From NCBI GenBank assembly GCA_023512255.1, contig JAILZY010000066.1, positions 1 to 19,208 of the forward strand: 19,208 nt of DNA, in the 5' to 3' direction. Below, piece by piece: positions 339 to 15,046 of the stretch. Numbering within the stretch: position 1 is the first letter of the stretch; each line of letters starts with the position of its first letter. Under the pieces are notes generated by a model. That model ran no database searches. It had not been told where the DNA came from and saw nothing but the letters and a program-made list of their open reading frames with translations. The DNA is from a bacterium. GTDB taxonomy: Bacteria > SZUA-182 > DTGQ01. A program made the position numbers and the translations under genes.

Positions 339-932
339 GTGGTGATAAGATCAATGAATATTCATTCTATCCAGCAGCAAGACAGCCGGCTTAAACTCAG
401 CTATCAGGACTATATCTTGTTTCCCTCTGATGGCAAGAGGCATGAAATTGTCGATGGAGAACATCATATGGCTCCTTCCCCTGAAATACGGCATCAGGAG
501 ATCTCGAGAAATTTGGCTCTAATTATAGCCTCCTACCTCAGAGAAAATAAACTTGGCAAATTGCTATACGCGCCTTGTGATGTCGTTTTATCCAATTGGG
601 ATATTGTGGTTCCTGACCTGATTTTCATTGCCAAGGAGAATGAGAAAATTATCACCAAGAAAAATATCCGAGGCGTACCTGACCTTGTGGTGGAGATTAT
701 TTCACCAGCTAGCAAGAGGTACGATCTTGTTATGAAGAGGAAGCTCTACGAGCGGTTTGGGGTTAAGGAGTATTGGATTTTTGACCCTGAAAGAGAAAGA
801 GTTGAAGTCTATACTCTATCTGAATCTGATCGGAGATTCTTAGAGCCAAAGATCTATGAACATGATCAGGTCATGGAATCATCTTTATTCCCTGCTCTTA
901 AGATCAACCTTACGGAGGTCTTCTCAGGTTAG
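339..932 (+). CDS. Uma2 family restriction endonuclease-like protein
   Basis: A 197-residue protein of the Uma2 (DUF820) family, which has the PD-(D/E)XK nuclease fold and occurs in many copies in cyanobacteria and uncultured bacteria. The cellular role of the family is unknown. Family hallmarks are the N-terminal YxDGE-like patch (HEIVDGE, residues 35-41), APSP and a following His, PDLIFI (92-97), PDLVVEIISP (114-123, giving Asp115 and Glu119), Lys133/Lys135, and GVKEYWIFDP (141-150). The putative catalytic Asp/Glu and Lys are all present, so it looks intact. The start is GTG at 339 with GGAG 11 bases upstream; GTG at 342 or ATG at 354 are alternatives. It is a single-gene unit, convergent with the carbonic anhydrase gene and ending before a strong terminator. 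Confidence 0.88.
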   Translation: MVIRSMNIHSIQQQDSRLKLSYQDYILFPSDGKRHEIVDGEHHMAPSPEIRHQEISRNLALIIASYLRENKLGKLLYAPCDVVLSNWDIVVPDLIFIAKENEKIITKKNIRGVPDLVVEIISPASKRYDLVMKRKLYERFGVKEYWIFDPERERVEVYTLSESDRRFLEPKIYEHDQVMESSLFPALKINLTEVFSG

Positions 933-1057: not shown

Positions 1058-1978
1058 CTAATCCAGGCAGGATGACCGCCCCAGGAATTTTGAAAACAGA
1101 CATAAGGCATCCTGCGGAGTAATTTCACCGTCATGATTGACATCCGCACAAGCCGAGCAGGCGCCTCTTTCGAGATAGCACAGGAAGACAAGCAAGGCAT
1201 CCTGTGGAGTGATCTCGCCATCCCCGTTAAGATCGCCATCGCAGGTCTCAAGGTAGCCTTCGGCCAGGGATTCATTGACATGGACCACAGCCTCGTTGGT
1301 GTGCTCATAGGTGTAGCCTTCATAGATTGGGTAGGTTTTTTCAGCCACCTCGCTCTGTGAGGTGATGGTTGTGCCTGCCGGAACATAGACATGGTCGGGC
1401 AGCTCAACCCCGACGATGGTGCAGCCTGGCTCGATGACGCAGTGTGAGCCGACCTTGGCGTTGAAGATCAGAGACTGCATGGCGATGAAAGTATCGTGGC
1501 CGACATAGGCTGGGCCATGCACCTGAGCCTGATGAGCCAGAGAGACCCTCTCGCCAATATAGACCGAGTAGCCGCTGCCATCGCCTACCCTCTCACCCTG
1601 GGCATTGAACTGCCGACCAGCTTTGAACTCCCAGTCGCCATGCTCTTTTGAAAGCTCTTCGGTCTCAAGACCGTGCAGCACAACGCCATCTTGGATATTG
1701 GCCGCCTCACCCACAAATATAGGCTGGCCCTCATCCCCACGAACCGAGGCCCCAGGGGAAACCATAATCTGCCCCTCCAGGGTAACATTGCCAATCACCG
1801 AGGCCAAGGGATGAACAAAGGTGGTGGCGGCAATGTGCGGGGAGGACACAGTGCGGCTAAAATCAGTGGCCACATTGGGGGCAATATGACCCATACCGGC
1901 GAAGGCGGTGCCTGCCAGCAGGGCAGTTATTATTACCAGATGAGAGAAAAAAACCTGCCATTTTTTTTGCTGAATCAT
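1058..1978 (-). CDS. Exported Cam-type gamma-carbonic anhydrase with C-terminal dockerin-like domain
   Basis: A 306-residue protein predicted to interconvert CO2 and bicarbonate outside the cytoplasm. Residues 1-27 form a signal peptide ending AFA. Residues about 32-245 match the left-handed beta-helix gamma class, closest in sequence pattern to Methanosarcina Cam. Visible are Arg80, Asp82 and Glu83, Asn94 and Gln96, the metal-ligand histidines His102, His149 and His154, and a proton-shuttle-like Glu105 three residues after the first ligand. The HTNEAVV stretch near 226-232 also matches Cam. The loop between the first and second His is about 11 residues longer than in Cam. Residues 247-301 hold two dockerin-like calcium loops (DxNxDGxIxxxD at 249-260 and 279-290) with extra cysteines. 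The start ATG follows AAGGAG at 5-nt spacing. No cohesin gene is in the window. Confidence 0.92.
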   Translation of the reverse strand: MIQQKKWQVFFSHLVIITALLAGTAFAGMGHIAPNVATDFSRTVSSPHIAATTFVHPLASVIGNVTLEGQIMVSPGASVRGDEGQPIFVGEAANIQDGVVLHGLETEELSKEHGDWEFKAGRQFNAQGERVGDGSGYSVYIGERVSLAHQAQVHGPAYVGHDTFIAMQSLIFNAKVGSHCVIEPGCTIVGVELPDHVYVPAGTTITSQSEVAEKTYPIYEGYTYEHTNEAVVHVNESLAEGYLETCDGDLNGDGEITPQDALLVFLCYLERGACSACADVNHDGEITPQDALCLFSKFLGRSSCLD

Positions 1979-2660
1979 AGCTACTCCTTGTAACTCCCTG
2001 TAACCGTTATTAATTAATACGATTCCTTAATTGTAAGGGGGATCAAAAATAAAAACAAAAACAAACAATAAACAATAAAAAAATTTATTTTCGCCTGGTT
2101 GAGATTAAAAATTTTCATCCGTTGGAGAGATCGGCTGATGGATTTTCAAATTAGGAAAGGGACAGGGCGCAGGATGAAACGCAAGATTTTAATCCTCAAA
2201 TTCTATCCTCAATCCTGCTGATACTTACAGGGGAAAATATAGTGGAGCCAACAGCGCGAAGAGAAGGAGGAGGTGCAGGAGGCAGTAAAAATAGAGCTGG
2301 GGAAAATAATAGTTTTCTTAAAGGGAAAATGGCCCAAAACCACACCTAGTCTTTGACCGCGATAATCAAAAAAATAGCTGCTTCTTCAAGGGGAAAATGA
2401 TCGATTGAGTGGGTGAATTTTGCACCTTCGTACCATGACCTTCCTACCGTGGGAGAGCTTGACAACCTGGGGAAAGCTTGACAACAACCTGTTATTACCA
2501 TCAACCTTTCTCTTTTTAATTTCCTAAAAAGAAAAACTCGATTCGCCACCACCTCCTTAAAGTTTAGTAGGATCTACGGACTAAAATGGACTAAAAAGTA
2601 TTCCCCCCTTGATCTATTTCGCCCCTTTGAGTTATTGTTTTCATTAAGCCAGCCTCGGGG

Positions 2661-4809: not shown

Positions 4810-5361
4810 ATGCAATGGCTTCAATTGATTAAGACGAATATCCCCTGGGGGAAGAGAGAAAGGATGATAGTCAGGGGCATCCTCATCGCTCTTCCCTTGA
4901 TCTTGGTTATCCAGTTTTATCTTTTGCCGAGTATAGTCAAGATCAAGGTTCTTGCTCAATCCATCCCTAAAAGGAAAGAGGATCTGAAGGAGCTACGTAG
5001 GCTGAGGGATGAGCTCTTTGAGCTGCGTAGAGAAACAGCGCGGGTAAATCAAGCCATCCAGCAGCGAGGTCAGGATTTTGAACTGCTCGCTTTCCTCGAA
5101 GAACTGGCCAAGAAGTGCAAGATCGAGGACAAGATAGTTTCGATGCGGCCAGTGTCTAATCTTTCTTCACCACCAAACGAGAAAATTATTGAGATAACTA
5201 TTGATGGTCTGGTAACTGAAGAGCTAACCAAGTATCTTTACGAGATTGAAAATTCAACTAAGCTTCTTTCTATTAAAAAAACAACGATTCGATCAAATCT
5301 TGGTCCTGAGAAGTCTCTTGATGTTTCTCTTCAGGTTTCAACATTAATAGATACGATCTAA
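4810..5361 (+). CDS. PilO/GspM-like membrane protein
   Basis: A 183-residue bitopic protein. It has a short cytoplasmic N-terminus, one transmembrane helix (about 23-42, ILIALPLILVIQFYLLP), a charged coiled-coil stretch (about 50-88) and a compact C-terminal domain (about 90-183). The C-terminal domain has the alternating beta pattern (EIITIDGLVTEELTKYLYEIENS-type region) of the ferredoxin-like fold in type IV pilus PilO and type II secretion GspM. No pilM, pilN, pilQ or gsp genes accompany it, so either it is an orphan or the machinery lies elsewhere. The ribosome site is weak; translation may couple to the TPR gene 32 nt upstream. The family call is from architecture and residue pattern, not a profile search. 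Confidence 0.68.
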   Translation: MQWLQLIKTNIPWGKRERMIVRGILIALPLILVIQFYLLPSIVKIKVLAQSIPKRKEDLKELRRLRDELFELRRETARVNQAIQQRGQDFELLAFLEELAKKCKIEDKIVSMRPVSNLSSPPNEKIIEITIDGLVTEELTKYLYEIENSTKLLSIKKTTIRSNLGPEKSLDVSLQVSTLIDTI

Positions 5362-5377
5362 AATAGATACGATCTAA
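5346..5377 (+). repeat. Perfect 16-bp tandem duplication including a stop codon
   Basis: AATAGATACGATCTAA occurs at 5346-5361 and again at 5362-5377, directly adjacent and identical. The first copy ends with the stop codon of the PilO/GspM-like gene (5359-5361); the second copy repeats that stop out of frame. Confidence 0.9.
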
Positions 5378-5418
5378 TCCAATTTCCCCGGAAGATCTTT
5401 CATAAGGAGAAACAAAAA

Positions 5419-5901
5419 ATGCTTGACATCAAGGCTATCTTGGAGTATTTACCCCATCGATATCCATTTCTGCTGATTGACAGGGTAATAGAATTTGAAG
5501 CCAAAAAGAGGATTGTGGCTATCAAAAACGTTACCATAAACGAACCTTTTTTCACCGGACATTTTCCCGGCAATCCAGTTATGCCTGGGGTGCTGATCAT
5601 AGAGGCCCTGGCTCAAGCCGGTGGAGTCTTGTGTCTGGCCTCGATGGGGGTCAAAAAACATAGTCTTGTTTATCTCATGGGTCTTGATAAGGTGAAATTT
5701 CGCGCTCCGGTTACGCCTGGGGATCAGCTTCGGCTGGAGGTTTGTGCCCTCAGGACTCATCAGAGAGGATGGAAAATGGGCGCTCAGGCTTTTGTAGGAT
5801 CAAATTTAGTAGCCGAAGGGATGATTTTGGCCAGGGCTGGCGGTGATCAACCAGAGACGAGCAGTGTTGAATCCGCTGCCTGCTGTGATATTGAACAGTG
5901 A
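5419..5901 (+). CDS. fabZ: 3-hydroxyacyl-ACP dehydratase FabZ
   Basis: A 160-residue hot-dog-fold dehydratase that converts (3R)-hydroxyacyl-ACP to trans-2-enoyl-ACP in the cytoplasm. It competes with LpxA for the same hydroxyacyl-ACP pool. The N-terminal motif [13 protein letters not shown] (11-23) and the catalytic stretch [17 protein letters not shown] (47-63) give His48 and Glu62. [18 protein letters not shown] is also typical. Length is about 10 residues over many family members because of a Ser/Cys-rich tail (150-160). Start ATG 5419 follows AAGGAG at 9-nt spacing. The stop TGA is close to the lpxA start, supporting translation from one message. Confidence 0.96.
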
Positions 5902-5915
5902 GGGACAGCCAGAGA

Positions 5916-6686
5916 ATGAACATCCACAAGACAGCTATCGTACATCCTAAGGCTCAGATTGAAGAGAATGTAACCATTGGTCCTTATTGCATCGTCGGCG
6001 AACATGTCATTATCCACAGCGGAACTATTCTTGAGGCTCAGGTTTTTCTTGACGGCTGGACCGAGATTGGAAGAGATTGCCATATTTTCCCATTTGCTAC
6101 CTTGGGTACTGTACCGCAGGATTTGAAGTTTCAGGGCGAGAAAAGTGAATTGAAGATAGGGCAGGGGACCGTGATTCGTGAAGGAGTAACTGCCCACCGC
6201 GGCACGAGCGGAGGGGGAGGTATTACCACCATTGGGGATGGATGCCTGCTGATGGCCTATGCCCATGTTGCTCATGACTGTCATGTAGGCAATCATGTTA
6301 TTCTGGCCAATGGGATTGCCATGGCCGGCCATGTTACCATTGAAGACCATGCCTCTGTCGGTGGACTGACCGCTATCCATCAGTTCACCAGAATTGGCCG
6401 CTATGCTTATGTCGGGGGTGCATCAGCCGTATCCAAAGATGTACCTCCCTACGGTATGGCTGCCGGGAACCGGACTAAGCTGTATGGAGTGAACTCGATC
6501 GGGTTGCAGCGAAAGGGTTTTTCTCAAGAAGCGATCGAGAACATCAAGAAGGCTTATCGCCTGCTGTTATCATCACACCTTAATGTTAGTCAGGCAATTG
6601 CCCGCATCGAGGCTGAAATTGATTCACCAGAAGTTAGATATCTAGTTGATTTTATTAAAAATTCAGACCGAGGAATTTGTAAGTAA
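5916..6686 (+). CDS. lpxA: Acyl-ACP--UDP-N-acetylglucosamine O-acyltransferase LpxA
   Basis: First committed enzyme of lipid A synthesis, transferring a 3-hydroxyacyl chain from ACP to UDP-GlcNAc (or its 3-amino analogue). The protein is 256 residues from ATG 5916, which has GAGGGA about 10 nt upstream. A GTG at 5898 overlapping the fabZ stop would add six residues and is less likely. Hexapeptide repeats of a left-handed beta-helix fill most of the chain. The catalytic His is in AHVAHDCHVGN (His120). The C-terminal helical part carries the LpxA signature GVNSIGLQRKGFSQEAI. LpxD is excluded by this C-terminus and the length. Confidence 0.95.
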   Translation: MNIHKTAIVHPKAQIEENVTIGPYCIVGEHVIIHSGTILEAQVFLDGWTEIGRDCHIFPFATLGTVPQDLKFQGEKSELKIGQGTVIREGVTAHRGTSGGGGITTIGDGCLLMAYAHVAHDCHVGNHVILANGIAMAGHVTIEDHASVGGLTAIHQFTRIGRYAYVGGASAVSKDVPPYGMAAGNRTKLYGVNSIGLQRKGFSQEAIENIKKAYRLLLSSHLNVSQAIARIEAEIDSPEVRYLVDFIKNSDRGICK

Positions 6687-9611: not shown

Positions 9612-10079
9612 ATGCACTATCAATCAGGGGTTAGGTATTCAGCAGCAGGAGATATATATGTAAGGAAAACCAGTTTTCGCAAGATCATCCTTAGGACCAT
9701 GATCATCCTGGCCATTGGCGCCTTTTTTCTCTATCCGCTTGTCCGCTATCTGACCGCTCCTCCAAACATGATGCGATACCTGGAAACAGTCCAAATATCT
9801 TTGGCCACTCTGCCGGAAGGAACCTCTCAGTTGATCTCCTATCACGGCCAGCCAGTCCTAGTCATTAATTATCATGGCAATATCAAAGCACTCTCTGCAA
9901 TTTGTACCTATAACAGTGCTCTGTTGAGATGGGACAATGATCGGGAAGAGCTGGTCTGCTCATCTCACGATGCCCGCTACGATATCAATGGAAATGTAAA
10001 AGCTGGCTTAGCCCCGCGGCCCCTGGAGCAGCTCGAGGTTATGGTTGTTGAGGGAAGTGTCATTATCGGCAAATCATAA
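9612..10079 (+). CDS. Membrane-anchored Rieske-like protein with an altered cluster site
   Basis: A 155-residue protein. Residues about 25-48 form an N-terminal membrane anchor; the remainder is a Rieske-type domain, likely on the outer face of the membrane. The fold pattern is visible: hydrophobic strands VLVINYHGNIKALSAICTY, then LVCSSHDARYDINGNVKAGLAPRPLEQLEV, as in Rieske ferredoxins and cytochrome bc subunits. The canonical CxH...CxxH set is broken: Cys98, Cys116 and His119 are present, but position 100 is Tyr (codon TAT) instead of His. A normal [2Fe-2S] centre with two His ligands is therefore not expected. Start ATG 9612 follows AAAGGAG at 9 nt. It is a single-gene unit behind a sigma-54 promoter, with no cytochrome b nearby. 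Confidence 0.78.
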   Translation: MHYQSGVRYSAAGDIYVRKTSFRKIILRTMIILAIGAFFLYPLVRYLTAPPNMMRYLETVQISLATLPEGTSQLISYHGQPVLVINYHGNIKALSAICTYNSALLRWDNDREELVCSSHDARYDINGNVKAGLAPRPLEQLEVMVVEGSVIIGKS

Positions 10080-10276
10080 GCACTTATCCACTTATGATTA
10101 TAATTATCCACTTCAACTTATAACCATACACTTATAATTTCATATTATAACTATACGCTTATAATTTATGACAACATCATAATTTATATGGACATTCCCT
10201 AGGACATTCCCTATAGACATTCCCTGCCCTGGGTGAGCCGAGGTAAATCTGAGGGCTATGCCCTTTCTCTGAAAGA
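10080..10276. repeat. A/T-rich degenerate tandem repeats in intergenic DNA
   Basis: Immediately after the Rieske-like stop, TTATCCACTT occurs at 10084 and 10104, and ATACACTTATAATTT (10126-10140) recurs as ATACGCTTATAATTT (10153-10167). Three copies of GACATTCCCT follow at 10191-10200, 10203-10212 and 10216-10225. No gene is seen. Confidence 0.7.
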
Positions 10277-10852
10277 TTAAAATTCCACTTTCGGAACCTG
10301 CTTTTCCTCCTCCGGCATTTGATAATATGTGCCCTTTTCAAAGCCAAACAATCCAGCAAAAACCCGATCTGGAAATTTAGCGATCGCCGTGTTATACTCT
10401 TTAACTCGCTCATTATACCGCATCCTTTCTACTGCCAGGCGGTTTTCTGTTCCGGCCAGCTCATCCATAAGCCGGTTGAAGCTCTCATTGGCCTTCAGCT
10501 CAGGATACCTCTCAAGGATAACCAGTAATCTTCCAAGAGCAGTTTCCACTGCCTGAGCTCCTTGAATCTTCTCAGGGATGGTTGTCGCCCCGGCCAGTTT
10601 TGCCCTGGCCTCAGCGATCTTGATAAATATTTCCTTCTCATGAGCAGCATACCCTTTGACCGTATTCACCAGATTAGGAATAAGATCATTCCTTCTCTTG
10701 AGCTGATTATCAACCTGGGCCCAGGCTCCGTCGATATTTTCCCTCATAGTTACCAATTTATTATAACGCGATATTCCCCAACCAACGAGAATGAGAAAAA
10801 GGATAGCTATGGCAGCCAAAACCGCCAGGAAAATGCTAAGACCTCGCTTCAT
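10277..10852 (-). CDS. lemA: LemA family protein
   Basis: A 191-residue LemA protein: a single N-terminal membrane helix (about 5-26) followed by a long antiparallel helical bundle facing the other side. Family signatures are RYNKLVTMRENIDGAWAQVD, LKRRNDLIPNLVNTVKGYA, the ELKANESFNRLMDELAGTENR stretch, YNTAIAKFPD and the C-terminal FEKGTYYQ. LemA proteins are poorly understood envelope proteins, often next to TPM-domain genes as here. ATG 10852 is preferred because AGGAGG lies 5 nt upstream; an upstream ATG at 10870 would place that site inside the gene. It is the last gene of a three-gene unit, 101 nt after the TPM gene. Confidence 0.95.
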   Translation of the reverse strand: MKRGLSIFLAVLAAIAILFLILVGWGISRYNKLVTMRENIDGAWAQVDNQLKRRNDLIPNLVNTVKGYAAHEKEIFIKIAEARAKLAGATTIPEKIQGAQAVETALGRLLVILERYPELKANESFNRLMDELAGTENRLAVERMRYNERVKEYNTAIAKFPDRVFAGLFGFEKGTYYQMPEEEKQVPKVEF

Positions 10853-11844: not shown

Positions 11845-12599
11845 GAGATCACCGGCAGGGCATCGACTTTTTGAGCCAGCTCATGAAGGCTGCAAAGATA
11901 GGCATTTAGGAGGCTCTCAAGCTCTGGTTTTTTCACCCCGCTCCTTCTTCCTTCCTTTAGGTGCAGCACTCTCATGAATACCTCAGTCTGAAGCTTAAGC
12001 CGATCGGCAATTTCCTTAATGACCCCCTCTCTTGACTTGGGAGGTGCGCCTCCCTGAAGACGGATGAGGCTGCGCAAGACCGGCATAAGAGCGGTCAGGG
12101 AATGGACCAGCAGTTGCTCGATCGGTTTTTGCTGAAGCCCTATTTCCAGGTAAGATTGGCGGATTCTGATCAGTTTGCCCTTAATTTCCTGCTCACACTG
12201 AAGACGCAGGTTGGACTGATTGATAGATAACTTTTGAAAGATATCCTCTCCGTAGACAGTAACATGCTGTTCCTTGATCTCAATGAATTCAATGGGGAAA
12301 GTATCGCATGAGGAAAGAATATGCTCCTCGGTAAGAAAGAGGGGCGCGGGGATTTTTTCCTTTCGGCCGCGGGCGATTACCTTTAGGCTGTCTTTTAGGG
12401 TAGAAAAGGGGAGATCAGCAAAGATAAACAGCAGATTGATATTCGACCGCTCAGGGATATAGTCTTCTCCGGCAGCGCTGCCATAGACAGTGGCTGATTT
12501 TAAGTTTTCTTGGTGAATTTGAATCATGCTCTGGCAGTAGCGGGCCACTGTCAGTCGAATACTGGGGGGCAGTAGATCGAGATTTTTTAGCTCACTCAC
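11841..12599 (-). CDS. Nucleotidyltransferase-fold protein with altered catalytic site
   Basis: A 252-residue cytoplasmic protein. Residues about 36-60 (ATVYGSAAGEDYIPERSNINLLFIF) have the hydrophobic-GS...SDIDL pattern of the polymerase-beta/aminoglycoside nucleotidyltransferase superfamily. The two metal-binding Asp residues are replaced by Asn53 and Asn55 (codons AAT and AAT). The remaining 190 residues are mostly helical, with no family I can name. GTG start 12599 follows GAGGAG at 7 nt. It is the first gene of the unit with TPM and lemA, sharing an ATGA overlap with the TPM gene. It could be a non-catalytic nucleotide-binding or regulatory protein. The superfamily call rests on a short motif. 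Confidence 0.62.
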   Translation of the reverse strand: MSELKNLDLLPPSIRLTVARYCQSMIQIHQENLKSATVYGSAAGEDYIPERSNINLLFIFADLPFSTLKDSLKVIARGRKEKIPAPLFLTEEHILSSCDTFPIEFIEIKEQHVTVYGEDIFQKLSINQSNLRLQCEQEIKGKLIRIRQSYLEIGLQQKPIEQLLVHSLTALMPVLRSLIRLQGGAPPKSREGVIKEIADRLKLQTEVFMRVLHLKEGRRSGVKKPELESLLNAYLCSLHELAQKVDALPVIS

Positions 12600-12660
12600 C
12601 CTTTTTCTCCTCTTGGGTTACTAGCGATATCAGTATAGAAAAAAAGATAAAATCAGAGAG

Positions 12661-12690
12661 ATTTTATTATTTATCAATCCAATTTGTCAA
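12661..12690 (-). promoter_or_regulatory. Sigma-70 promoter for the nucleotidyltransferase-TPM-lemA unit
   Basis: On the minus strand a consensus TTGACA (12690-12685) is 18 bases from TAAAAT (12666-12661). Transcription would start near 12654 and give a leader of about 55 nt to the GTG start at 12599. Confidence 0.62.
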
Positions 12691-12768
12691 CTGAAAGTAT
12701 ACCCTTTTTCTAAAACTTTTAATAACTCAGCCTTTAATAACCCTTGGGGAATGTAGGTAGGAAAAGTT

Positions 12769-12825
12769 TAAAGTTTTAGGAGGATGGTTTGGAAGGAACC
12801 CTTTTTCAAAAGGGTTCCTTCCAAA
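12769..12825 (+). repeat. REP-like hairpin family, copy 2
   Basis: The box TAAAGTTTTAGGA (12769-12781) is followed by an 18-bp perfect stem, TTTGGAAGGAACCCTTTT (12788-12805) with its complement (12808-12825), closed by a 2-nt loop. Box and central 20 nt match the element at 8546-8606, which lies in the opposite orientation. Here it lies between divergent promoters, where a transcription terminator would have no gene to end. Confidence 0.65.
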
Positions 12826-12851
12826 ATTTAGTGTGGCGATATTTTCCCTGA

Positions 12852-12879
12852 TTGCCCGAAAACAGATGTAGTCTACGAT
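12852..12879 (+). promoter_or_regulatory. Weak candidate promoter for the GAF-hydrogenase operon
   Basis: TTGCCC (12852-12857) and TACGAT (12874-12879) are 16 bases apart, each with four of six consensus bases. The start of transcription would be about 19 nt before the ATG at 12905. The assignment is tentative; a regulated promoter of another kind is equally possible. Confidence 0.28.
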
Positions 12880-12904
12880 TTTATTGGATAAGAAAGGGCG
12901 TCAT

Positions 12905-13957
12905 ATGCAAGAGGTCGAAATAAAATACCGAGATGAGTTTTGCCAGCGATGCGGGGAAATCTCCTGTACTTTGAATTTTGATGAGGCCCTGCAAACCATT
13001 CTGGACAACATTGATCGCTGTCTTGATGTTCAGGCCTCTGCCATTCATCTGGTAGATCCTGGCTCACAAACCATAGCTCCTGTGGCTGCCAGGAACCTAT
13101 CGTCTGACTATATCAGCCGATATCAGCTTAGGCTTGAGGAGAACCCTATTGAGCAGGAGGTATTAAAGGGCAAGGTCATCACTATCGCTGATGCCAGGGA
13201 AAACCCAACCTACCAGAAGTTAGCCGAATCAGAGGGCATCCGCTCCATACTCTGTGCTCCGCTCAAGGCTAAAGAGCGGATCATCGGCAGTCTCTGGCTT
13301 TTTACCCGTACGGTGCGCTCATTCGATCCGGGCGAGCTCAGCTACGTTACTACCTTGGCTAGTCAGGCCGGAGTGGTACTGAGCAATGCTAAATTGTACC
13401 AAAGCCTCCATGCCCTGTCGGAAATAGGTCAAGCCCTCACCTCTCGTCTTGATTTGAGCGAGGTTCTGCAAATGATTGTCGAAAAGGCTACCCGGCTCAT
13501 GGGTGGCAAGGGAGCCTCGATCCTGTTGATAGCCCGACAAGGGGAGACTCTGGAGGTTGGGGCTACCTGGGGCCTAAGTGAAAAATTTTTGAAAAAAGGG
13601 CCGATAGAGATTGAAAAATCTCTCCGCGAATGCCTGGACCATCTGCTAGTAATCCCCGATGTTTCCAAGAGCCAAGATGTGCAGTATCCAGAGCATCTGG
13701 CCCAAGAGGGCATCCGCTCCATTCTCTGCACGCCCCTGACCGTCAAGGAACGGCCTATCGGGACGCTTAGAGTGTATCTTGCTTATCCTAGGGAATTTTC
13801 TGCTGAGGACCTTGAGCTGTTTCAGATCTTGGCTGATTTTGGCGGCATTGCTATTGAAAATGCCCGATTATTCAACCACATAAAGAGAGATTACGAAGAC
13901 CTGACCCAAGATGTATGGCAATGGTACGATTGGGGTAAAAGGGCACCAAGTATATAA
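12905..13957 (+). CDS. Tandem GAF domain protein
   Basis: A 350-residue soluble protein made of two GAF domains (about 22-168 and 184-325), small-molecule or redox-sensing modules. Both carry the same core phrase, EGIRSILCxPL then KERxIGxL (near 110-130 and 268-288), so they are internal duplicates. No kinase, GGDEF, HTH or AAA+ output domain follows; the chain ends in a short tail DVWQWYDWGKR. N-terminal cysteines at 13, 16 and 21 precede the first domain. ATG 12905 has GAAAGGG about 7 nt upstream, whereas a TTG at 12884 lacks one. The gene ends 12 nt before hydB and is probably in the hydrogenase operon, suggesting a sensory or partner role in H2 metabolism. Confidence 0.87.
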   Translation: MQEVEIKYRDEFCQRCGEISCTLNFDEALQTILDNIDRCLDVQASAIHLVDPGSQTIAPVAARNLSSDYISRYQLRLEENPIEQEVLKGKVITIADARENPTYQKLAESEGIRSILCAPLKAKERIIGSLWLFTRTVRSFDPGELSYVTTLASQAGVVLSNAKLYQSLHALSEIGQALTSRLDLSEVLQMIVEKATRLMGGKGASILLIARQGETLEVGATWGLSEKFLKKGPIEIEKSLRECLDHLLVIPDVSKSQDVQYPEHLAQEGIRSILCTPLTVKERPIGTLRVYLAYPREFSAEDLELFQILADFGGIAIENARLFNHIKRDYEDLTQDVWQWYDWGKRAPSI

Positions 13958-13968
13958 CGAGTATATAA
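13949..13968 (+). repeat. Direct repeat over the GAF gene stop codon
   Basis: AGTATATAA occurs at 13949-13957, ending in the stop codon of the GAF gene, and again at 13960-13968 just before the hydB start. It leaves hydB with little recognisable Shine-Dalgarno sequence. Confidence 0.65.
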
Positions 13969-13969
13969 T

Positions 13970-15046
13970 ATGCAGGAGCAGGCTTTTATCATTGAAAAAG
14001 ATCAGCTTTTCTCCTGGCTGGAAAAATTGCAGCAGGAATTTCTCCTCATTGGCCCCAAAAAGCAAGAAGAAGGTGGTGGGGTGGCTTTCCTCCCTATTAA
14101 ATCCGTTCAGGAGCTTGATTTAAATTATACCCTAACCATGATGGGGCCTCAAATTTATCTCTATCCTCCTGAGGAGACAATTTGCACCGTTTGGCGGAAA
14201 GATGACGGGGGATTTGAGGTCAGGATGAGGGAAGAGGTTCCTAGGCAGGTGCTATTTGCGGTTCGCTCCTGTGATCTTCAGGCCATCTTAGTGCTGGATA
14301 AGGTTTTCTTAAGGCCGGGGCTTGAAGATCGCAACTATCGGCTTTGGCGTGAAAACACGCTGCTTATAGGCCTTCACTGCTCATCGATTCATCCCCAGTG
14401 TTTTTGCGCTTCTATGGGTAGTGGTCCGTTTTTTGAGCCAAGGCAGGGCTATGACCTCTTGCTCACGGATCTTGGCCAGATAGGGTATTTAGCTGAAACT
14501 TTAGGGGAGCGGGCTTCGAGCCTTCTTGCAGCGCTAAAGGCTCAGCCAGCTACCCAGACTCATTTTGATCAAAAGAGGCAAATTGGCCACTACCTGCTGA
14601 CTCAATTTCAAAAGAGCATCGATACCACACACCTGGTTGAGGTTCTGTTGAAAAATCAAGATCATCCGGTTTGGTCACAGACAGCGGATCAGCGCTGTTT
14701 GAGCTGCACCAATTGCACTAAGGTTTGTCCGACCTGCTTTTGCTATAACACCAAGGATACGGTCAGCTTTGACCTCGTGCGGTGTGAGCGGACAAGGTAT
14801 AAAGACTCATGTCAAGAGCTTCATTTTGCCCAGGTGCATGGGGCAAATTTTCGCTCAACGAGATCTTCTCGGCTTCGGCAGTTTGTTACTCATAAGCTAG
14901 CTACCTGGGTAGAGCAGTTTGGCTGCTTTGGCTGTGTCGGCTGTGGTCGGTGCATGAGCTGGTGTCCGACTGGGATTGATCTTACACAGATGGCTAAGGA
15001 AATCATGGTTTCAGAGGGGCTCTATGATCGGCGGCGGCAAACATGA
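13970..15046 (+). CDS. hydB: Hydrogenase iron-sulfur (beta) subunit, HydB-like
   Basis: A 358-residue electron-transfer subunit of a group 3b-type (sulfhydrogenase-like) [NiFe]-hydrogenase. The N-terminal about 200 residues match the domain shared with the anaerobic sulfite reductase A / HydB family, including FAVRSCDLQAILVLDKVFL (96-114) and LLIGLHCSSIHPQCFC (131-146). Two [4Fe-4S] motifs follow: Cys243, 246, 249, 253 (CLSCTNCTKVCP) and Cys322, 325, 328, 332 (CVGCGRCMSWCP). In this family the subunit links the flavin subunit to the catalytic pair. The ribosome site is weak, so translation may depend on the GAF gene upstream. The gene order B-G-D-A is that of Pyrococcus sulfhydrogenase. Confidence 0.9.
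   Translation: MQEQAFIIEKDQLFSWLEKLQQEFLLIGPKKQEEGGGVAFLPIKSVQELDLNYTLTMMGPQIYLYPPEETICTVWRKDDGGFEVRMREEVPRQVLFAVRSCDLQAILVLDKVFLRPGLEDRNYRLWRENTLLIGLHCSSIHPQCFCASMGSGPFFEPRQGYDLLLTDLGQIGYLAETLGERASSLLAALKAQPATQTHFDQKRQIGHYLLTQFQKSIDTTHLVEVLLKNQDHPVWSQTADQRCLSCTNCTKVCPTCFCYNTKDTVSFDLVRCERTRYKDSCQELHFAQVHGANFRSTRSSRLRQFVTHKLATWVEQFGCFGCVGCGRCMSWCPTGIDLTQMAKEIMVSEGLYDRRRQT

Follow-up and report, generated by a model that had tools for sequence, protein, structure and literature searches.

Cohesin and dockerin pairs, in which the calcium-binding dockerin is the plug and the cohesin its socket, are usually treated as tools for polysaccharide breakdown. Recruitment of a carbonic anhydrase (CA) into a larger assembly is known from CcmM of beta-carboxysomes, a gamma-class CA trimer for which C-terminal binding modules carry out this task. 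The role of many non-cellulosomal cohesin and dockerin sets is a standing question in the field. In ANME archaea the dockerin or cohesin tag is reported to be common on the binding proteins of ABC transporters and on S-layer proteins, and CA is not mentioned in the main text on these sets (PMC9012536). Our literature search found no natural dockerin-tagged CA, no dockerin-tagged CO dehydrogenase (CODH), and no paper on disulfide-rich bacterial dockerins. The enzyme type, the dockerin fold and the existence of non-cellulosomal cohesin and dockerin sets are already known, and what appears new at the locus described here is the combination of CA and dockerin. We consider it probable that its product is a secreted Cam-type CA, held in place by a dockerin that plugs into cohesins on further proteins exported by the same cell.

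The gene lies at positions 1058-1978 on the reverse strand of the window (the whole stretch of DNA that was analysed, 19,208 nucleotides), and encodes 306 amino acids recognised from the open reading frame (ORF), Pfam, NCBIfam and a phmmer search of the PDB as an exported Cam-type gamma CA with a C-terminal dockerin. The ORF starts with ATG, with AAGGAG just 5' of it, and is real, the match to Cam and dockerin being far beyond chance. Residues 1-27 (1898-1978, reverse strand) read by eye as a signal peptide, MIQQKKWQVFFSHLVIITALLAGTAFA followed by G, with the likely cut between AFA and G and a long N-terminal helix in the model. The gamma CA domain (residues 28-243; 1250-1897, reverse strand) consists of a left-handed beta helix and a C-terminal helix according to alignments and the model, and the six-cysteine type I dockerin assigned from Pfam, alignment and fold (residues 244-306; 1061-1249, reverse strand) runs to the C-terminus, which ends SSCLD. 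A sequence-only reading had proposed a signal peptide, a Cam gamma-class enzyme with its metal-ligand and catalytic residues, and a dockerin with two C-terminal calcium loops. All three are supported: a Sec-type signal peptide is clear by eye and is kept in the sister species, the residues are all present by alignment in a predicted fold close to that of Cam, and the dockerin exceeds the Pfam cut-off, with dockerins as its fold matches.

Between the CA gene and a convergent Uma2-type gene (339-932, forward strand) is a likely shared terminator hairpin, AAAAACCCGGCT...AGCCGGGTTTTT (972-1011, no strand assigned), which was read from the sequence, as its loop is longer than the limit of the simple hairpin scan that did not pick it up. 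With this likely terminator on one side and ~1.1 kb without clear genes on the other, the CA gene appears to stand alone; it does not adjoin a cohesin gene, no operon or co-regulated partner was found for it within the window, and an Rfam scan of the window gave no family matches. An antisense ORF over the CA gene (window 1673-1993, forward strand) is open also in the sister species (57% identity); conservation of the CA frame on the opposite strand most likely accounts for it. A signal peptide alone brings a protein only as far as the periplasm. The cell is expected to have an outer membrane, since the ORFs at 5419-6686 of the window look by eye like lipid A genes of the fabZ/lpxA type. The CA is predicted to work outside the cytoplasm, and both the surface and the periplasm are compatible with its signal peptide.

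Residues 248-294 score 31 bits with the Dockerin_1 model of Pfam (E = 2.9e-7), for which the cut-off is 22.9. Pfam and the family alignment place the two calcium loops at residues 249-260 (D249-D260; DLNGDGEITPQD; 1199-1234, reverse strand) and 279-290 (D279-D290; DVNHDGEITPQD; 1109-1144, reverse strand), and both show the D-x-N-x-D-G...D spacing. When modelled alone the domain has a mean pLDDT of 82, and the top 26 of its 29 fold matches are dockerins, with probabilities up to 1.00, TM scores of ~0.6-0.7 and E-values which are weak (0.1-1.5) because the domain is small. The closest solved structures are type I dockerins, and the sequence matches are mostly cellulosomal dockerins. Judged by sequence and model together, the C-terminal domain is a genuine type I dockerin.

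The last 63 amino acids of the CA are common to ~19 other proteins of the same genome (48-68% identity), and the same tail is found in 30 proteins of the sister species (G001); over both genomes the identity is mostly 50-69%, and most of these proteins have a cohesin immediately in front of the dockerin. In a family alignment of 31 sequences, every copy keeps the opening and closing aspartates of the two calcium loops, TP[AQ..]DA stands in both loops of nearly all, and six cysteines (C246, C267, C274, C277, C293 and C304 in the CA) each occur in 26-31 copies. The 'ITPQDA'-type repeats singled out by the sequence-only reading thus recur, as TP[AQ]DA, in ~20 proteins here and in 30 of the sister species. 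These dockerins usually end in PSCLD, at or near the C-terminus in most of the tagged proteins, and the dockerins fetched from other organisms are without this cysteine set. By this comparison of sequences the six-cysteine dockerin is a lineage-specific variant, and its cysteines may form disulfides. At the usual cohesin-recognition positions the CA dockerin has P-Q in both loops, whereas the studied dockerins of Clostridium thermocellum are of the S-T type, so the choice of partner is not predictable. A different, cysteine-poor dockerin is encoded in the same genome (L107:7928-10126, forward strand), directly upstream of a protein with two cohesins and a dockerin, and more than one plug specificity is therefore likely. 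A family-level relative (G002; L138, reverse strand, ~5344-5568) retains what is left of a six-cysteine dockerin, interrupted by an in-frame stop.

In the genome (G000; 3.83 Mb, 172 contigs, 96.6% complete), the cohesin and dockerin domains that exceed their Pfam cut-offs number 20 each. A genome free of cohesins would have counted against the complex proposed in the sequence-only reading; the 20 that were found, some of them in likely anchors, speak for it. At E <= 1e-5 there are 25 cohesins in the sister species and 0-5 in each of the other seven members of our nine-genome sample of the phylum. Five proteins of the genome have a dockerin only (the CA among them), 14 have one or two cohesins and then a dockerin, and ~6 have cohesins only, with a maximum of two cohesins per protein. 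In nearly all of the cohesin-then-dockerin proteins the distance from the LKFKVK strand of the cohesin to the start of the dockerin is mostly 38-44 amino acids, and the end of the cohesin (GGCFC) is only a few residues away from the first dockerin cysteine. We infer that so tight a joint disfavours folding back onto the same molecule, and favours intermolecular chains.

Among the proteins with cohesins alone, L119 has two of them and a lipobox (LLAGC) at its start, and is a predicted lipoprotein which fits the part of a membrane anchor. Three others (L113:2242-5496, L121:435-6299 and L122:1664-2806) end in low-complexity tails rich in Trp, Tyr, Gly and Ser. A three-gene cluster, in which a two-cohesin protein is flanked by two dockerin proteins, is kept in both species (C122 in G000, C67 in G001). 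The other domains on the cohesin and dockerin proteins of this genome include beta-propeller, beta-helix, VWA, RHS, PKD and C25-protease domains. Three gingipain-type C25 proteases bear a C-terminal six-cysteine dockerin (L112:5528-8161, L174:6203-9280 and L182:354-4019), two of them being cohesin-dockerin proteins and one having a dockerin only. No glycoside hydrolase domains were found in the scanned dockerin proteins of the genome, and no carbohydrate-binding module (CBM) in its cohesin proteins. GH9 is absent from the genome, the control search being positive, and a search for GH48 gave no match, with the GH48 control silent too. A cellulosome was rejected as a reading of this set, there being no glycoside hydrolase cargo among the scanned dockerin proteins, no multi-cohesin scaffoldin with a cellulose-binding module, and two cohesins per protein at most.

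Relatives of gingipain-type C25 proteases in Bacteroidota bear type IX sorting domains. That such proteases carry the six-cysteine dockerin here, and that in most of the tagged proteins this domain closes with PSCLD at the C-terminus or a short way from it, could indicate a sorting or surface-attachment tag, like the C-terminal domain of type IX secretion, which does not act via cohesins. We regard this as improbable, since L114, L116, L126, L131, L167 and L168 have the domain in mid-protein or towards the N-terminus, positions incompatible with a C-terminal sorting tag. Furthermore, cohesins are about as many as dockerins in both genomes, and are scarcer in the other members of the phylum. 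The reading that the dockerin docks onto cohesins is supported by the 20 cohesins and the set of plug-only, plug-and-socket and socket-only proteins, by the conservation of the fusion, and by the other tethers which are found on exported Cams elsewhere.

These other tethers were seen in a sample of ~85 other Cam homologues, none of which shows a dockerin. The sample comprised 18 bacterial homologues, the Cams of 62 genomes from the class to which an ANME archaeon belongs, and those of 7 genomes sampled from the phylum of a Thermincola MAG; the range of the match and the length of the frame served as the criterion, and the complete sequence was read for 14 of the longer frames. Exported Cams with a lipobox include L032 and L033 (Thermincola), L038 and most of the archaeal ones that were read. 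In the archaeal L201 and L204 a Tat signal is combined with a C-terminal anchor of the PGF type. L201 (genome G088), a surface protein, has three Cam domains in one frame of 729 amino acids, and tandem Cam arrays therefore occur outside the sister species. Going by these sequences, an exported, tethered Cam is a known theme and the dockerin would be a new tether. Its conserved cysteines, six in number, point to added stability once outside the cell, and the domain could be a plain EF-type pair of loops, held by calcium and disulfides, that merely stabilises the exported enzyme. This is a good deal less probable than a sorting tag, as the other Cam homologues examined all do without such a domain, and a plain EF-hand pair was set aside for a dockerin on the Pfam score over the cut-off and on a model which matches dockerins and not EF hands in general.

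The CA part of the protein is ~50% identical to Cam of Methanosarcina thermophila, with which residues 30-245 align at E = 1.5e-60 (phmmer search of the PDB). The match to the NCBIfam family carb_anhyd (NF040597; 261 bits, E = 1e-77) does not reach the equivalog cut-off of 380, and the protein is therefore termed Cam-type and is not filed as that equivalog. In the alignment, R59, E62, N73, Q75 and D76 of Cam correspond to R80, E83, N94, Q96 and D97, and H81, E84, H117, H122 and N202 to H102, E105, H149, H154 and N235, and all are present. Alignments with both Cam and the homologues support the metal ligands H102 (Cam H81; 1673-1675), H149 (Cam H117; 1532-1534) and H154 (Cam H122; 1517-1519), all on the reverse strand, and the E84 proton shuttle has its equivalent in E105. 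Among 19 homologues the listed active-site residues are invariant save for D97 and E105. W19 and Y200 of Cam are replaced by F40 and H233, as in most bacterial homologues. The core of the CA model has a pLDDT mostly above 90, and the predicted fold matches Cam structures with target-normalised TM scores of 0.95-0.96 and an rmsd of 1.1 (Foldseek). On these residues and this fold the enzyme is a Cam-type gamma CA with an intact active site, and is predicted to hydrate CO2. In some CcmM proteins a CA-like part acts as a scaffold, and CcmM is the second NCBIfam match. A role chiefly as a trimer-forming scaffold of that kind, with catalysis weak or absent, is nevertheless very hard to credit for the present domain, which retains every metal ligand of Cam along with the counterpart of its proton shuttle and has a dN/dS of 0.07. 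A second exported CA is encoded in the same genome, a beta-class enzyme with an apparent signal peptide (L104:2629-3357, forward strand; C93), and the physiological need is thus not met by the dockerin-tagged CA alone.

The sister-species orthologue keeps the fusion of CA and dockerin, with dN/dS at 0.07 in the CA part and 0.12 in the dockerin part, and by this measure of sequence change the fusion is under purifying selection. There it takes the form of a tandem CA-CA-dockerin (L124, reverse strand, ~12478-14005), the two CA copies being 94-99.6% identical in DNA; the first copy holds an assembly gap (N), and the exact frame is therefore provisional. The same species also has a dockerin-tagged CODH of 764 amino acids (L130:5674-7968, forward strand), which is possibly the most surprising item of the analysis. 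Its score with TIGR01702 is 578 bits, where the cut-off is 478. The Tat motif SRRNFIK is followed by a CxxCH heme motif just past the likely cleavage site, and the protein bears the C-cluster ligand motifs and, at its C-terminus, the same six-cysteine dockerin. A GEGP-motif diheme cytochrome (L133:7615-8958, reverse strand; NF041762, 452 bits) has the same C-terminal dockerin. Near the tagged CODH are small proteins like those with Trp/Tyr/Gly/Ser-rich tails (L184:8515-9204, 9874-10548 and 12195-13031).

The exported CA would interconvert CO2 and bicarbonate outside the cytoplasm. It probably forms trimers, as its homologue Cam does, giving three plugs per particle, and these plugs may bind the cohesins of the lineage in a calcium-dependent manner. 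The cohesin-then-dockerin proteins could chain head-to-tail, with socket-only lipoproteins or proteins with low-complexity tails anchoring the network. The benefit might be a balance of CO2, bicarbonate and local pH beside the enzymes that use CO and CO2, in an organism with a Wood-Ljungdahl-type gene set.

The sequence-only reading had brought in the hydrogenase of the window, but this lies 12 kb away and no evidence was found that links it to the CA. CO and CO2 appear to be the better-supported metabolic context, and for the CA of the window they are context only. The genome has two CODHs, one (C130) beside a ferredoxin-type protein and hydrogenase-like subunits and the other (C153) beside CODH/ACS-type genes, with the subunits named by eye; both are without the tag, and no dockerin-tagged CODH was found in this genome. 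In the sister species, the tagged CODH and diheme cytochrome suggest an extracytoplasmic CO/CO2 module. It is conceivable, though we think it unlikely, that the genus runs its cohesin-dockerin assembly partly for one-carbon and redox chemistry outside the cytoplasm, with CO oxidation, electron export and CO2 hydration on one scaffold. The members of such an assembly in the sister species would be the heme-motif CODH, the diheme cytochrome and the double-domain CA, of which the CA is the one kept in both species.

A dockerin on an intact CA, and in the sister species on a CODH and a diheme cytochrome, gives a non-cellulosomal set a cargo of definite, testable chemistry. The snap-together system known from the digestion of plant fibre appears to have been put to another use here, in one-carbon chemistry beyond the cytoplasm. 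If true, CO and CO2 turnover outside the cytoplasm would have an enzyme scaffold of natural origin, and its plug, possibly reinforced by disulfides, would be a potential part for building enzyme assemblies.

Compared with known systems, the protein shares with Cam (PDB 1QRM, 3OTM and others) the fold, all metal-binding and listed catalytic residues and ~50% identity, and the Cam family is often exported; it differs in its C-terminal dockerin, in an acidic loop which is ~12 residues longer, and in having F and H in place of W19 and Y200. Cams of anaerobes with a lipid, sortase-type or membrane anchor (for instance Thermincola L032 and L033, and the archaeal L201 and L204) are likewise exported and held at the membrane or surface, and tandem Cam domains occur on both sides, L201 having three and the sister-species CA two; in place of a dockerin, these anchored Cams use a lipobox, or else a Tat signal combined with a C-terminal segment of the PGF type. 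CcmM also joins a gamma CA to C-terminal binding modules and is related in sequence, as the second NCBIfam match indicates; however, it is cytoplasmic and its modules bind Rubisco, whereas the present protein is exported and has a dockerin as its module. With the type I cellulosome systems of C. thermocellum and others there are in common the dockerin family, the predicted fold, the paired calcium loops, the many cohesins in one genome and the anchor-like cohesin proteins. In contrast to those systems, no glycoside hydrolase is tagged here, the dockerin has six conserved cysteines, cohesin and dockerin are usually in one protein, and no multi-cohesin CBM scaffoldin is seen. The cohesin and dockerin sets of ANME archaea (PMC9012536) resemble the present one in that such proteins are many, cellulose is not degraded, and the organisms are anaerobes with C1 metabolism.
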